Below are positions 1 through 9,054 of a DNA stretch of 64,000 nt, piece after piece. Both the position numbers and the translations under genes were made by a program. Source of the DNA: Aequorivita sp. H23M31 (lineage in GTDB: Bacteria > Bacteroidota > Bacteroidia > Flavobacteriales > Flavobacteriaceae); the NCBI RefSeq assembly GCF_004022485.1, contig NZ_CP034951.1, positions 434,001-498,000 of the forward strand. Reading direction: 5' to 3'. Every line of letters starts with the position of its first letter. Within the stretch, counting starts at the first letter, position 1. The notes below the pieces were generated by a model. The model was not told the DNA's origin and made no database searches. It saw nothing but the letters and a program-made list of their open reading frames with translations.

Positions 1-1312
1 TTAGATTATCCTGGTTCAAATTCTTTATTGTTGTTTCAGCTAAGCCATTGCTTGGGGTTCCAAAGAGGATAAGGTGGCTTATTTTTTCTCGGTCTTCGGG
101 AGATAAATCTAATATAGTTTGTTGAACGGCCAGACCTCCCAAGCCATGAGCAATTATTGCAATACGCTTGTATTTGGAATATTTATGCTTTATGGAAGCG
201 GTGAGGTAAGTGGAATTTCGATTTATGTCGGTAAGAGAAGCCCATACATTTTTGCCAAGGTCAGGAAGGATATTTTCACCATAACCAAATGGAAACATAT
301 CCCATCCCGCCATCTTTTTGTCCTCCATTAAAAATTTAGGGATATCCGCAAAAGCCGTCGCTCCATTACCCATAAAACTATGTACAAAAAGAATAACACT
401 ATTGGCATTTTCCGTTTCCCTGAAAACTGTAGCCTGTTCTTCCTTAGTTGCTTGTTTACCTTGAATTGATGTTTTAGTTTCAATCTTACTCTCTGGATTA
501 GTTCTTAGATCCTTCGGAAGATAACTGAGCACGAAGTCATCATATATTTGAAGATTGGCATAGGGATTTTGCTTAGGATTGGCTTCGGGCACCTTTTTAA
601 AAATATATTGTACCACCTCCGAAATTCGAATAAAGGGATCACTAAAATCCGTTTTGCCCTTCCCCCGTAAAACCTCAATCATACATTTAGTATAAAGACT
701 ATTGCTGTCTCCTTGCATAATATAGCTTAGCTGATCTTCCCTACAAGAGGAAATAATCGACATTCCCTTACCATCATCCAATGTTTGGGCAAGTCCATCC
801 TGTTGCGATAAATGCCCTGCCGCCTTAGACAATATACCAGGTCCGTCCTTGGTAATGCCCGCGGCGTGACAACAATCCAAAAAGAAAACCAGACGGCGCG
901 ATTTCAGTTTACTTATTTTCTCCTTTACCTCTTCCGCTTTTACCCAAGTCTTTTCATAGTTTACGGGGTCATAATCAAATGGACACAAATGAAAGTATTT
1001 TTTGTTTTGGTCCTCTGGTTTCCAATCTTCCTTTCTTAAAAATGTATTGTCACTATAACATCCACCGTGGCCGGAATAATAGATAAGCACGGAAGCGTTT
1101 TCATCCGACTTTTCAATAAGATTGTCGAAGCTGGCAAGAATGTTTTTACGGGTAGCTTTATTGTCCGTAAGCAAGGTAATATTTTCGGGTAAATATCCTG
1201 CAATGGTCTCGTCTGCGAGAATATTATAAATAGCCGTGGCATCCTTGACGGTTACCGGAAGATCATTCCCTACTCCTATCAACAGTGCATATACGTTTTT
1301 TAGATTTCCCAT
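1..1312 (-). CDS. Caspase-like (C14) protease fused to degenerate alpha/beta-hydrolase domain, 3' end outside window
   Basis: The frame is open from the ATG at 1312 to the window edge (437 codons visible, no stop), so the C-terminus is missing. Residues 1-265 are a caspase-like p20/p10 fold. The catalytic dyad looks intact: His82 in YYSGHGG and Cys148 in FLDCCHA. A linker rich in K, E, Q and T (270-300) leads to an alpha/beta-hydrolase-like region with strand VILFVHSF near 307 and FGTPSNG near 418. At the nucleophile elbow the sequence reads AHGLGG (388-393), with Gly where lipases and PGAP1-type esterases have Ser. The gene starts 11 nt after the preceding membrane-protein gene, so it is the third gene of a tight operon. 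It has no signal peptide, so it is probably cytosolic and held near the membrane by its partners. The protease call is firm. The role, perhaps cell death, defence or stress proteolysis, is inference. Confidence 0.85.
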   Translation of the reverse strand, partial: MGNLKNVYALLIGVGNDLPVTVKDATAIYNILADETIAGYLPENITLLTDNKATRKNILASFDNLIEKSDENASVLIYYSGHGGCYSDNTFLRKEDWKPEDQNKKYFHLCPFDYDPVNYEKTWVKAEEVKEKISKLKSRRLVFFLDCCHAAGITKDGPGILSKAAGHLSQQDGLAQTLDDGKGMSIISSCREDQLSYIMQGDSNSLYTKCMIEVLRGKGKTDFSDPFIRISEVVQYIFKKVPEANPKQNPYANLQIYDDFVLSYLPKDLRTNPESKIETKTSIQGKQATKEEQATVFRETENANSVILFVHSFMGNGATAFADIPKFLMEDKKMAGWDMFPFGYGENILPDLGKNVWASLTDINRNSTYLTASIKHKYSKYKRIAIIAHGLGGLAVQQTILDLSPEDREKISHLILFGTPSNGLAETTIKNLNQDNL

Positions 1313-1323
1313 TTTGTTTGGTT

Positions 1324-1869
1324 TTATTTAAATTCAATTTTCTTCATCAGCTCTTCAACTTCCATTGCCTGTTTTTCGGTGGCGGAGTCATTGGCCGCGG
1401 AAGTAACTTCGAGCATTGCCTCCATCATTTTCTTCTGCTGAATAGTTATAACTCCGGTTTCCTTTAGTTTTTGCAAAAGTTGCAAGGGTTCCAAATCCTG
1501 AACTCGAATGTTATTTTTTTCTGAAATCACTTTTAAATAATTTATAAGCTCCGAGCGAACTTTTAAGATTTTACGAAATGGAGTGTCATTTTCCTCATTG
1601 AATACCTTTATATTTCCACCACTCTTTTCAACAGTTGTGGGCACAATCTGTTGAAACAGTTTCTTCGTGGCCTCTATCTTTTGCGCAAAACTTAGTTGAA
1701 GTCCAGAAGTATCCGCTTTTAGTGTATTTAATCGTAAAATGACATTTGCTATACTTTGTCTGAAGATCAAGAACATAAACAACAAGGTTAAAGGCCAAAT
1801 AATAACATCGATCAATTGGACAAATACCTCGAAATTGCTTTTATAAAGGATTTCCGTTTCAATAGCCAT
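1324..1869 (-). CDS. Small membrane-anchored helical protein of the caspase operon
   Basis: This is a 181-residue protein with one clear transmembrane segment at about 18-37, followed by an acidic, helical cytosolic part. Residues 115-160 contain a helix pair (LLQKLKETGVITIQQKKMM) that resembles DUF4145/HEPN-like helical domains, but no RNxxxH nuclease motif is present. I do not recognise a named family with certainty. It lies 20 nt after the TPR gene and 11 nt before the caspase gene on the same strand, so the three are almost certainly co-transcribed. A plausible job is membrane recruitment or scaffolding of the protease; this is inference from position and topology only. Confidence 0.8.
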   Translation of the reverse strand: MAIETEILYKSNFEVFVQLIDVIIWPLTLLFMFLIFRQSIANVILRLNTLKADTSGLQLSFAQKIEATKKLFQQIVPTTVEKSGGNIKVFNEENDTPFRKILKVRSELINYLKVISEKNNIRVQDLEPLQLLQKLKETGVITIQQKKMMEAMLEVTSAANDSATEKQAMEVEELMKKIEFK

Positions 1870-1889
1870 AATGGTTTGTTTTTAAGGGA

Positions 1890-3845
1890 TTAGTACCAGA
1901 ATTTTAATATCTTCTGAAATCTATCGGAGTTTATATACTTCCGAAATAGTGGGTCATTCTGAAAACTTGTGGAAATAAATAAATGACCCTCGGCTACCGA
2001 TTTAAGTAGATTTAGATACATCTCATCTTCCTTATTTGCCATAGCATCGTATTGAGCGAGCACGTAATCAACCTCTCCAAATTGAAAAGGCCCCCGCAAA
2101 TTTTTGAGCATATGGAGATTTTTTTCGGCTTCGGAATTATTGCCAAGCATATAATTTGAAATGGCCAGCTTTCCAAGGAAATCTATGGATTTAGGGCTTT
2201 CAATATGCAGCTTATGATATACTTCTTCCGCTCGCGCAAAGTCACCCAAGTAAAAAAGTGCTTCTGCCAAATAATGTTTATCGGATATCTGGGATCCCAG
2301 ATTTTTTGCTTTTTTGAAATATATTTCGGCGGTGGTATTATTTCCCTTTAATAAGTACTCTTTTCCCGCCGTCATATATAAGAGAAGAAGATTTTCAGGA
2401 GTAGCGGTAAGTTCCTGCTGAAATAAAAAATTATTTAAATCGGCAACACTCCCAGTTCTTACCCAGGCCTGAAGAAGTGGTTTTTTTAGAATATCGGAAT
2501 CTATCTGAGCCAGTACTTTCTGGGATTCATTTATCGCTTTTTGGTAATTATTTAATTGCACGTCCGCTAACGCCTTCACATAAATTCTCTCCACACAATT
2601 GGAGCAATTCACAAAGTCCACACTATCCGACTTAATCACATTAAAAATTTCCTCTACATCCTGAGGTCTGTTCACAAATTGCAATGCCAGGACCATGGCT
2701 GTTTTATTTGTTATAAGATCAAAGGGAGCCATTTTATATTCCCTCAGGAGCATTTCGTAGGCTTTTCTGTTATCACCCTTAAGAGTAGCCTCATACATGT
2801 TCAACAGATTGAGTTGTCGCAGGTTTCGGTGGGAATCAGGTTTTATTAATTTTAGGAGGGAATCTGCTTTTTTAAATTCCCTTTGATTGTAGAAATATGC
2901 CACCCTAAGCACTTTCGCCTCAAAATAAGTAGGGTCAATCTCAAGAGCGCTGTTTAAAAGAGCTAGTTGTTCTTCGTCACTGCCCGTACTTTTTGCGTCC
3001 AAAAGATATTTATAGGCTTCATATTTTGGAGGTCTTTCCTGTAGCAGCAATTTTTTGTTTGCTGAGGTGGCGAGATATCCTGTAATGGACTCGGAAAGAT
3101 CTTTGATACAATCCAAGGCATTAGCCGAATTGCAAGTGTTTTTTTTAAAGGAAATTATTGTTGAATTGGTCTCTCCATCTGTAATACTGCTTTGGAATAT
3201 TAATTGACCATTGTTGAGATAGAAATTCCCCGAAATTATTCTCGCGGGCTTTAAATATTTTCGCACCATATTTTCTTGATCTTCCCCTGATTTTCCAGAG
3301 CGCAGCATATCATTATACTGTGAGATAACATCCTCAGAAATAACCTGTCCTAACTGATTTTCAGTAATTCCGTGAATTACCCAATCGGAAGCCATTTTAC
3401 CAACAATATCATATTTGGGATCACCCGTATTATTTCCAAATTTGAGCACCGCAATTTTATCCGTGTGAATTGCTGATGGCAAAACGGAGTTTTTTGAAAA
3501 CGTATTGCCGACGATGAGGAAAATTGCCGTTGCACATATTATTCCGATCACTCCTATTGCCGAAAAATAAATTTTATGGAATTCCTTGGTAAGTTTTTCT
3601 TGTTCTTCTACATCTTCATTTTTCTTTAGAGGTGCGATTCGAAATTTCCAAACCAAAAAGATAAATACCGGAAAACCTGCCAATAAAAAAATAATCAGAT
3701 AAGTAACGGAGGTATGGGGAAGTCCCAACGCTTCCCAAGTAACAGCAAGGACCTGCAACAAAACCCAAGATGAAACGATATAAAAAGAAAGCAATTTAAA
3801 CACTTCCTTTTTATGGCACTCATTTATAAAGCTTTTGAATTGCAT
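1890..3845 (-). CDS. Three-TM TolB/FlgO-like and TPR-repeat membrane protein
   Basis: This 651-residue protein begins with an amphipathic segment (EVFKLLSFYIVSSW) and transmembrane helices at about 17-37, 46-67 and 93-113. This N-terminal layout is common in proteins that place a TolB/FlgO-like domain before TPRs. The TolB-like part starts at IAVLKFGNNTGDP (131-143) and runs to about 250. From about 275 to the end the sequence is a superhelix of TPR-like repeats with recurrent A and Y pairs. It is the first gene of the operon that ends with the caspase-like protease. By analogy it could sense a cell-envelope ligand or act as a platform for the downstream proteins. The domain calls are good; the function is unknown. 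Confidence 0.8.
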   Translation of the reverse strand: MQFKSFINECHKKEVFKLLSFYIVSSWVLLQVLAVTWEALGLPHTSVTYLIIFLLAGFPVFIFLVWKFRIAPLKKNEDVEEQEKLTKEFHKIYFSAIGVIGIICATAIFLIVGNTFSKNSVLPSAIHTDKIAVLKFGNNTGDPKYDIVGKMASDWVIHGITENQLGQVISEDVISQYNDMLRSGKSGEDQENMVRKYLKPARIISGNFYLNNGQLIFQSSITDGETNSTIISFKKNTCNSANALDCIKDLSESITGYLATSANKKLLLQERPPKYEAYKYLLDAKSTGSDEEQLALLNSALEIDPTYFEAKVLRVAYFYNQREFKKADSLLKLIKPDSHRNLRQLNLLNMYEATLKGDNRKAYEMLLREYKMAPFDLITNKTAMVLALQFVNRPQDVEEIFNVIKSDSVDFVNCSNCVERIYVKALADVQLNNYQKAINESQKVLAQIDSDILKKPLLQAWVRTGSVADLNNFLFQQELTATPENLLLLYMTAGKEYLLKGNNTTAEIYFKKAKNLGSQISDKHYLAEALFYLGDFARAEEVYHKLHIESPKSIDFLGKLAISNYMLGNNSEAEKNLHMLKNLRGPFQFGEVDYVLAQYDAMANKEDEMYLNLLKSVAEGHLFISTSFQNDPLFRKYINSDRFQKILKFWY

Positions 3846-3989: not shown

Positions 3990-4116
3990 ATGTCAGACAA
4001 AAAGAAACCCGCCGCGAAAAGTACTTCGGCAAGCGCAAAAAAAAACCGCTACTAAAAAAGAATCTCCGAAAAAAGGTCCTATTTCAAAACCTGGAGCAAA
4101 CATTAAACCTATATAG
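3990..4116 (+). pseudogene. Small Lys/Ala/Ser-rich basic protein, frame broken in an A9 run
   Basis: The ATG at 3990 opens MSDKKKPAAKSTSASAKK and then stops after 21 codons. If one A is removed from the nine-A run at 4037-4045, the frame continues (ATKKESPKKGPISKPG) to a TAG at 4114-4116, giving 41 residues rich in K, A, P and S. Such composition is typical of small DNA-binding, histone-H1-like or ribosome-associated proteins. A strong intrinsic terminator follows at 4138-4178, which supports a real transcription unit. The shift could be a sequencing error, a mutation or slippage in the homopolymer. Confidence 0.5.
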
Positions 4117-4137
4117 AGATGGTTTAGAATTGGAATG

Positions 4138-4178
4138 AAAAAGTTCCTTTCTAATTATTTTAGGAAGGAACTTTTTTT
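4138..4178 (+). terminator. Intrinsic terminator after the small basic-protein gene
   Basis: A long stem formed by AAAAAGTTCCTT and AAGGAACTTTTT, with a loop of about 16 nt, is followed by a T run. It lies 22 nt after the reconstructed stop of the small Lys-rich gene. No other plus-strand gene is near enough to use it. Confidence 0.8.
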
Positions 4179-4257
4179 CGTTTGATAATTAGAATCCGTG
4201 CTCATGAACTACAAGCCGTCGAAGCTTTAAATAGGAGGAAGACTAGGAAATCCAGGG

Positions 4258-8676: not shown

Positions 8677-9054
8677 ATGCGTTTTCTTAGTGTTTTGGTA
8701 TTGTTCCTGCTGTTTTCAGGATGTTACAACCAAGAACGAAATTGTGCGGATTATAAAACAGGTAAGTTTGAATTTGAAGCAATTTCTGGCACAGAAGTAT
8801 TTAAAACAACTATTGTAAGAAATGATACGCTGGAAATCGATTTTTTCCAAGGAAAATCGGATACCTCCTCTATCCGTTGGATCAACGATTGCGAATATGT
8901 TATCAAGAAATTAAACCCTAAAAACCAAGCTGAGAAAAAAGCAATTTTGATAAAGATTCTTACCACCTCAGAAAATGAATATACTTTTGAATTTAGCGAA
9001 GTAGGAAAAACCAAATCAAGTAAGGGATTGGCCCGTCGCGTGAGGGAAAACTAA
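8677..9054 (+). CDS. Small lipoprotein of unknown function
   Basis: This 125-residue protein starts with a lipoprotein signal peptide (VLFLLFSGC, Cys16). The mature part is a small beta-rich domain (TGKFEFE, then strands ending ILTTSENEYTFEFSE). Similar small Flavobacteriaceae lipoproteins are often mislabelled 'DNA topoisomerase IV' in databases; nothing here supports a topoisomerase. It starts 48 nt after the XRE gene and may share its transcript. The role is unknown. Confidence 0.75.
   Translation: MRFLSVLVLFLLFSGCYNQERNCADYKTGKFEFEAISGTEVFKTTIVRNDTLEIDFFQGKSDTSSIRWINDCEYVIKKLNPKNQAEKKAILIKILTTSENEYTFEFSEVGKTKSSKGLARRVREN

Follow-up and report, generated by a model that had tools for sequence, protein, structure and literature searches.

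For most bacterial caspases we know of neither the trigger nor the natural substrate. A locus of Aequorivita sp. H23M31 raises the question with which partners a caspase-like protease is encoded and what such a gene group may do. It is situated at the start of a stretch of 64,000 nucleotides (nt) (positions 434001-498000 of C1, the single contig of this 3.68 Mb genome; hereafter the window), for which an initial annotation had described a three-gene membrane-linked caspase operon. The gene system observed is real and conserved in bacteria: the gene of a predicted membrane protein (g1) stands beside that of a caspase-like protein (g3), plus an easily overlooked peptide gene. Most likely this membrane-linked caspase signalling module is a conflict switch for regulated death or phage defence, a function predicted from sequence and proposed with middling confidence. 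The following features are relevant (aa, amino acids; TM, transmembrane; TPR, tetratricopeptide repeat):

1890..3845, minus strand: g1, 651 aa, with a three-TM N-terminus, a conserved domain and TPRs; probable sensor (hydropathy, Pfam, position upstream of g3)
1324..1869, minus strand: g2, 181 aa, one TM helix and a predicted four-helix bundle (structure model, hydropathy; 32 of 57 loci)
2..1312, minus strand, continuing to G000:C1:433075: visible part of g3 (437 of 745 aa), caspase-alpha/beta-hydrolase-TPR-S protein (Pfam, structure model)
557..1291, minus strand: caspase domain of g3, residues 8-252, with the H82 codon at 1067-1069 and the C148 codon at 869-871 (PF00656, alignment)
2..415, minus strand: start of the alpha/beta-hydrolase domain of g3, from about residue 300; nucleophile position 390 at 143-145, Gly (alignment, model)
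3990..4116, plus strand: divergent small peptide gene, reading MSDKKKPAAKSTSASAKKNRY with a stop at 4055; the conserved tail SKPGANIKPI, in another frame, ends at 4116; homologues at the same place in relatives
4138..4178, plus strand: hairpin and T-run, probable terminator of the peptide gene (folding of 4117-4190: minimum free energy -23.8, z -4.75)

Gene Order and Co-occurrence

The genes g1, g2, and g3 follow each other on the minus strand (3845-1890, 1869-1324, and from 1312 downwards) with gaps of 20 and 11 nt, as initially annotated. The trio is real but incomplete. The window start cuts g3, with most of the alpha/beta-hydrolase domain and the TPR-S domain in the hidden part. Beyond the window, 3' of g3, a gene encoding an 82-aa PGDYG protein (PF14083, 32.8 bits against a cut-off of 27) is followed by a DoxX gene, and the divergent peptide gene precedes g1. 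The gene system thus exceeds what the window shows.

An initial single-sequence scan of genome contigs found no relatives. When 296 genomes of the order were searched with one g3 sequence, full-length g3 was detected in two, the window's and G154. With g2, six of 199 family genomes were positive, the window's included, and the other five keep the order g1, g2, g3. In the pairs compared, identities are 45.9-57.4% for g3, 35.5-48.9% for g1, and 21.4-37.4% for g2. In G198, g1 and g2 are 5.2 kb apart with apparently metabolic genes between them. A g3 profile search yielded 70 loci, mostly of Flavobacteriaceae, e.g., Aequorivita, Lutibacter, Leeuwenhoekiella, Gelidibacter, Altibacter, and Muriicola. 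Together with six more, 76 loci were mapped by profiles, 13 of which were dropped for lack of a complete g3. Two of the remaining 63 (L066 and L070) are duplicates, which were kept in residue counts and excluded from neighbour and peptide counts, leaving 61 loci. Counts of g1 and g2 refer to loci with at least 2600 nt upstream (n = 57), those of PGDYG and TIR genes to loci with at least 1500 nt downstream (n = 56). Since the loci were found by g3, these counts state how often other genes accompany g3 and not the reverse; for g1, g3, and the peptide, the search within the genus Aequorivita covers both directions.

Except for L039, g1 is located upstream of g3 on the same strand in all loci (56 out of 57). 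In 53 of the 57, g1 adjoins g3 or is separated from it by g2 alone, with gaps within 300 nt (in L069, g1 is in pieces), and in three it lies approximately 5.2-5.4 kb away. g2 is optional: it was observed in 32 of 57 loci, namely in 32 of 46 with the hydrolase domain and in none of the 11 without it. The gene order, which the initial annotation had suggested testing, is kept in many genera. The identity matrices of g1 and g3 (r 0.84, 57 loci) and of g2 and g3 (r 0.93, 33 loci) are correlated, with 0 of 999 permutations as high.

Among 28 Aequorivita genomes, full-length g3 occurs in 18 and full-length g1 in the same 18; the other 10 contain partial, weaker g1 matches or none (three of the 28 genomes are only 69-89% complete). 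Full-length g2 is restricted to the window's genome, and one further genome has a weak match to the TM part of g2 at another place. Of 395 genomes sampled across the phylum, 107 gave a partial match to the g3 profile, mostly to its caspase portion, and full-length g3 was found only in the window's genome and G154. Six of the 395 carry a hydrolase-TPR-S frame without a caspase, and the g1 and g2 profiles detected nothing in the 9.6-17 kb around these six genes. Spread by known plasmids was rejected, as 66 of 72,556 records match part of g3 and none covers 80% of it; spread by phages was likewise rejected, with no g3 match in phages.

The Caspase-Hydrolase-TPR-S Protein

The description of g3 as a caspase-like protease with intact His82 and Cys148 was corroborated. 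Residues 8-252 match Peptidase_C14 (PF00656; E-value 1.9e-19, 70.7 bits against a cut-off of 21.4), all 63 complete g3 proteins (the two duplicates included) preserve the dyad, and 61 of them retain Cys147. The PADLOC caspase model matches g3 with an E-value of 1.6e-17. A TPR-S domain (PF20308) is situated at residues 540-646 (50.7 bits, cut-off 27.6), and each of the 45 aligned g3 proteins has Pfam matches to both caspase and TPR-S (TPR-S at E-values up to 0.01). TPR-S was reportedly regarded by Burroughs and Aravind in 2020 as a sensor of NAD+-derived signals. Residues 300-525, approximately, gave weak esterase/lipase matches (Pfam DUF676 with 18 bits, below its cut-off of 20.3). No TM region was found in g3 by hydropathy. 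The AlphaFold2 model of g3 (mean predicted local distance difference test score, pLDDT, 82.4; predicted template modelling score 0.61) matched metacaspase and MALT1, lipase, and TPR structures in a Foldseek search of the PDB, which supports three folds; ASK1 was matched at 2.6e-4 with poor overall superposition.

The hydrolase domain is less constant. In the 63 proteins its nucleophile position 390 is occupied by Ser in 28 (both duplicates among them), Asp in 13, and Gly in 11, including the window protein, which consequently lacks an active triad; the remaining 11, with lengths of 457-492 aa, lack this domain. All 52 proteins that possess it retain Asp474 and His498. Relative to the caspase domain, the hydrolase domain diverges faster, with mean ratios of 2.04 in Gly lineages (10 pairs), 1.56 in Ser lineages (24), and 1.30 in Asp lineages (78), the pairs not being independent. 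Due to the invariance of the dyad in proteins whose hydrolase nucleophile is changed or whose hydrolase domain is lost or diverges faster, we consider the caspase to be the constant catalyst; the hydrolase as the main output was rejected, since in many proteins its nucleophile is changed or the domain is lost. Twelve of the 13 loci with Asp at the nucleophile position belong to Aequorivita.

Two acidic residues, D24 and D146, are invariant in 45 of 45 aligned g3 proteins, and D24 aligns with a metacaspase Asp. Both presumably match the pocket which accepts Lys/Arg in metacaspases and MALT1, and on this basis the g3 caspase is predicted to cut after Lys or Arg.

The Divergent Peptide Gene

Upstream of g1 and in the opposite direction lies a short frame rich in Lys, Pro, Gly, and Ser with the motif K-x-G-x-x-[IV]-x-P. 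A first, stricter motif rule was passed by 29 of 59 loci with known g1 start (26 with the tail motif), against a background of 42 out of 6242 short frames of the same loci. A composition rule, chosen after seeing which loci the strict rule had missed, assigned a peptide to 53 of the 59 loci; 121 of 6840 short frames of these loci pass it, peptides included. The distance between the starts of peptide and g1 is 75-186 nt, and it falls within 100-144 nt for 48 of the 53; variants were observed in five of the remaining six loci. In the split loci L011, L052, L083, and L085, where g1 and g2-g3 are approximately 5 kb apart (in L011, g1 at 1732 and g2 at 8912), an acidic peptide with the tail D-N-G-I-x-I-D-P is situated before g1 and a basic peptide with K-P-G-I-S-I-N-P repeats before g2. 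L078 encodes a peptide with K-T-G-I-T-I-E-P repeats, and L100 lacks a peptide beside the g1 copy counted here but has one at its other g1 copy.

In its loose form the motif occurs within the last 12 residues of 47 of the 53 peptides. The strict form is present in 46 of the 53, and all 46 have at least one copy in which Lys precedes the Gly by two residues, a count which is not independent since the picking rule asks for Lys; the acidic peptides lack this Lys. In L044 the peptide is expanded to 13 motif copies and 147 residues.

The peptide is under purifying selection: pooled over 14 close pairs, non-independent ones drawn from 10 loci of three clades, the proportion of nonsynonymous differences (pN) is 0.037 and that of synonymous differences (pS) 0.371, and the Altibacter pair displays 28 synonymous differences versus 1 nonsynonymous one. 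Within Aequorivita, a peptide profile was positive in 17 of 28 genomes, exactly the 17 genomes other than the window's that contain g3, and in none of the 10 without g3 (Fisher 1.2e-7 over 27 genomes, with relatives counted as independent). This profile was built after the change of rule from 10 Aequorivita-type peptides, probably from genomes of the same search. No Pfam or NCBIfam family convincingly covers the peptide (10 peptides each; best E-value 0.0053, all below cut-off).

In the window itself the peptide frame is broken. It starts at 3990 and stops after 21 residues; beyond an A9 run (4037-4045), a different frame encodes the conserved tail. A true frameshift or, equally, a homopolymer sequencing error would account for this. 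The strong hairpin behind the peptide was not reported by a simple scan; in 27 of the 53 loci a stable fold (z -2 or lower, mononucleotide shuffles) and a T5 run follow the peptide.

The Membrane Proteins g1 and g2

g1 had been annotated as a three-TM TolB-like/TPR protein. Hydropathy supports the three TM regions, and Pfam as well as the best 60 of 86 PDB profile matches support the TPRs. The TolB likeness was not recovered: neither Pfam nor these 60 PDB matches gave TolB for g1, and no TolB match was obtained for the 158-position region behind the TM segments. Considering the topology, the conserved domain and the TPRs would be placed outside the cytoplasm, and g1 is probably a membrane protein with a sensing role. 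Two tandem g1 copies precede a caspase-TPR-S gene in L093 and L100. Paired neighbour genes in G480, G485, G488, and others, i.e., in Aequorivita with or without the operon, encode proteins of approximately 590 aa which have roughly the N-terminal 140 residues in common with g1. A further TPR-containing membrane protein (771 aa, L002:1617-3932), encoded approximately 5 kb downstream of g3, has no detectable homology to g1.

The view of g2 as a helical protein with one TM region is in good agreement with hydropathy and with the structure model, a TM helix and a four-helix bundle (pLDDT approximately 90 in the bundle). Several of the best Foldseek matches are HEPN proteins, but at E-values of 0.25 or worse, and the 31-row g2 alignment contains no conserved R/H pair of the kind found in the HEPN motif R-x4-6-H. 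Searches of Pfam and NCBIfam with 31 members gave scattered weak matches only; a death effector domain match (0.021, one member) was taken as chance. With regard to the proposed division into sensor, adaptor, and effector, the sensor and the protease fit the constant pairing of g1 and g3, both between loci and within Aequorivita. The presence of g2 in 32 of 57 loci and in one of 28 Aequorivita genomes led us to reject it as an essential adaptor.

Downstream Partners and Genomic Surroundings

A PGDYG gene is situated within 600 nt 3' of g3 in 36 of 56 loci, and a TIR gene within 1500 nt in 38 of 56. With the peptide, PGDYG, and often TIR belonging to the module, the protease does have co-conserved partners beyond the annotated trio, an outcome which the initial annotation had held to speak against its reading and which applies in part. 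All three TIR neighbour proteins checked possess a TM segment, and 11 of 11 aligned ones keep a Glu at one position, which we take to be catalytic. In some loci the TIR gene is followed by a gene for a 227-aa protein (L009 4957-5640, L013 12463-13146), with one TM segment in the L013 copy, which may be a further component. In the window genome, the TIR_2 model has one match, at the distant position C1:2899133, and a profile of the operon TIR proteins, the other model tried, found nothing. In G190, TIR genes likewise occur only elsewhere in the genome.

The initial annotation had also suggested looking for defence genes nearby. PADLOC, applied to ten neighbours, gave PD-T4-6 kinase-type matches for one protein (best 4.4e-8) and helix-turn-helix-type matches for another (best 4.1e-6), and no evident defence island. 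A role in death or defence, as initially considered, is suggested by the PADLOC caspase match to g3 but not by its neighbours.

Proposed Mechanism and Alternative Explanations

We infer the direction of signalling, the messenger, the protease specificity, the role of the peptide, and the outcome as follows. Anchored by its three TM helices, g1 would sense an envelope cue, which g2, where present, may relay to the inner face. The cytosolic g3 would be the executioner, its TPR-S domain holding the caspase at the N-terminus inactive as long as no signal is received. For relatives that possess a TIR gene, this signal is probably an NAD+-derived messenger made by the TIR protein. As no TIR gene adjoins the window operon, the TIR step is proposed for relatives and not for the window genome; there, with the nucleophile of the hydrolase lost as well, any output must come from the caspase. 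The caspase may act on, or be tuned by, the divergent K-x-G-x-x-[IV]-x-P peptide: given the predicted Lys/Arg pocket, the Lys-bearing peptide is a candidate substrate or ligand. It is tempting to speculate on a peptide-gated prokaryotic caspase pathway, in which the peptide couples the membrane sensor to the caspase-TPR-S effector, a tentative idea that we consider possible but somewhat less probable than its opposite. Since one caspase is tied to one membrane protein and one peptide throughout 28 Aequorivita genomes (the broken peptide of the window aside), trigger and substrate are directly testable.

Several observations weigh against a conflict switch. The surroundings of the operon read as housekeeping genes, a nitroreductase gene is located upstream in 11 of 61 loci from several genera, and 18 of 56 loci, the window's among them, have no TIR gene within 1.5 kb, so that a TIR messenger cannot be universal. 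On account of the shared nitroreductase neighbour and the housekeeping surroundings, a slowly inherited physiological system fits as well as defence. Accordingly, an envelope-signalling or developmental circuit, in which the caspase would release a signal from the repeat peptide by processing, without cell death, is the strongest competitor, if an unlikely one; the strong conservation of the peptide and the presence of the module in 18 of 28 Aequorivita genomes agree with it. Against it stand the 10 Aequorivita genomes without full-length g1, g3, and peptide, and the partners TIR and TPR-S, which are typical of conflict systems.

The peptide might instead inhibit the caspase as an antitoxin-like pseudosubstrate, forming a toxin-antitoxin-like pair with a membrane trigger. 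Its exact co-occurrence with the protease in Aequorivita, its divergent placement near g1, and the Lys of the strict-motif peptides (subject to the picking rule) are compatible with this explanation, which we nevertheless regard as improbable, because the window combines a broken peptide frame with an intact caspase, a sequencing error being possible, and because the split loci carry a second, acidic peptide before g1 alone. There is still less reason to presume a plain type IV Thoeris system, i.e., TIR and caspase-like effector, with accessory genes. It would account for the TIR gene behind g3 in the majority of loci and for the combination of caspase and sensor domain in g3, but not for the loci without nearby TIR, the window's included; compared with descriptions of Thoeris, it is g1 and the peptide that accompany g3 most constantly. 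A chance neighbourhood in one lineage, which the initial annotation had named as the alternative, has practically no probability left: many genera retain the order although their proteins are only 21-57% identical in pairs, and on the basis of this conservation chance is not a reasonable account. Our preference remains with the membrane-linked conflict switch.

Comparison with Known Systems

The gene set was not found described in the open-licence literature searched, including the accessible parts of PMC12847820, PMC13373217, PMC7159879, PMC8195603, and PMC3501461, which is a weak negative, and no mention of PGDYG was found in this literature. In type IV Thoeris, a TIR protein activates a caspase-like protease by means of N7-cADPR (Rousset et al. 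2025, as described in parts of PMC12847820 and PMC13373217). A caspase-like protease encoded with TIR is likewise observed in 38 of 56 loci. In contrast to Thoeris, the constant partners are the membrane protein g1 and the divergent peptide, g3 has an extra hydrolase domain, and the window operon contains no TIR gene.

EACC1-caspase systems are two-gene membrane conflict systems prevalent in actinobacteria, with alpha+beta EACC1 extensions, and pairings of caspase with hydrolase are described as well (parts of PMC7159879). Common to both is a 5' single-TM gene followed by a caspase gene, and the EACC1-type caspase model is matched at E-values up to 0.001 by 45 of 45 g3 proteins. However, the window g3 reaches 66.5 bits, far below the model cut-off of 140, and g2 is predicted to be helical, unlike the extensions in that description; the 31 g2 members gave no EACC1 match in Pfam or NCBIfam, libraries which may hold no EACC1 component model. 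Due to the missing adjacent TIR gene on the one hand and the score below the model cut-off on the other, the window system is assigned to neither type IV Thoeris nor EACC1-caspase, though it may work like both.

Prokaryotic TPR-S systems resembling the ASK1 signalosome were reportedly characterized by Burroughs and Aravind in 2020. Similarities are the TPR-S domain above cut-off, ASK1 among the fold matches, and effector swapping, e.g., the hydrolase-TPR-S frames without a caspase in six of 395 genomes; to our knowledge, g1, g2, PGDYG, and the peptide are not part of the descriptions of these systems. That modules such as caspase, hydrolase, TPR-S, and TIR are shuffled here is relevant to how caspase/TIR/ASK death signalling arose in animals. 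As to the peptide, the closest precedent is given by VMAP/FtsH ternary systems with attached peptide processing by a zincin metallopeptidase and sometimes a radical-SAM enzyme, with FxSxx, RxD, acidic, and FtsH-associated motifs (parts of PMC7159879). Both share a small variable precursor with a conserved C-terminal motif in a conflict system with a peptidase, whereas here the peptidase is a caspase and the motif K-x-G-x-x-[IV]-x-P; a peptide gene with this motif, linked to a bacterial caspase, is what the present gene system adds.

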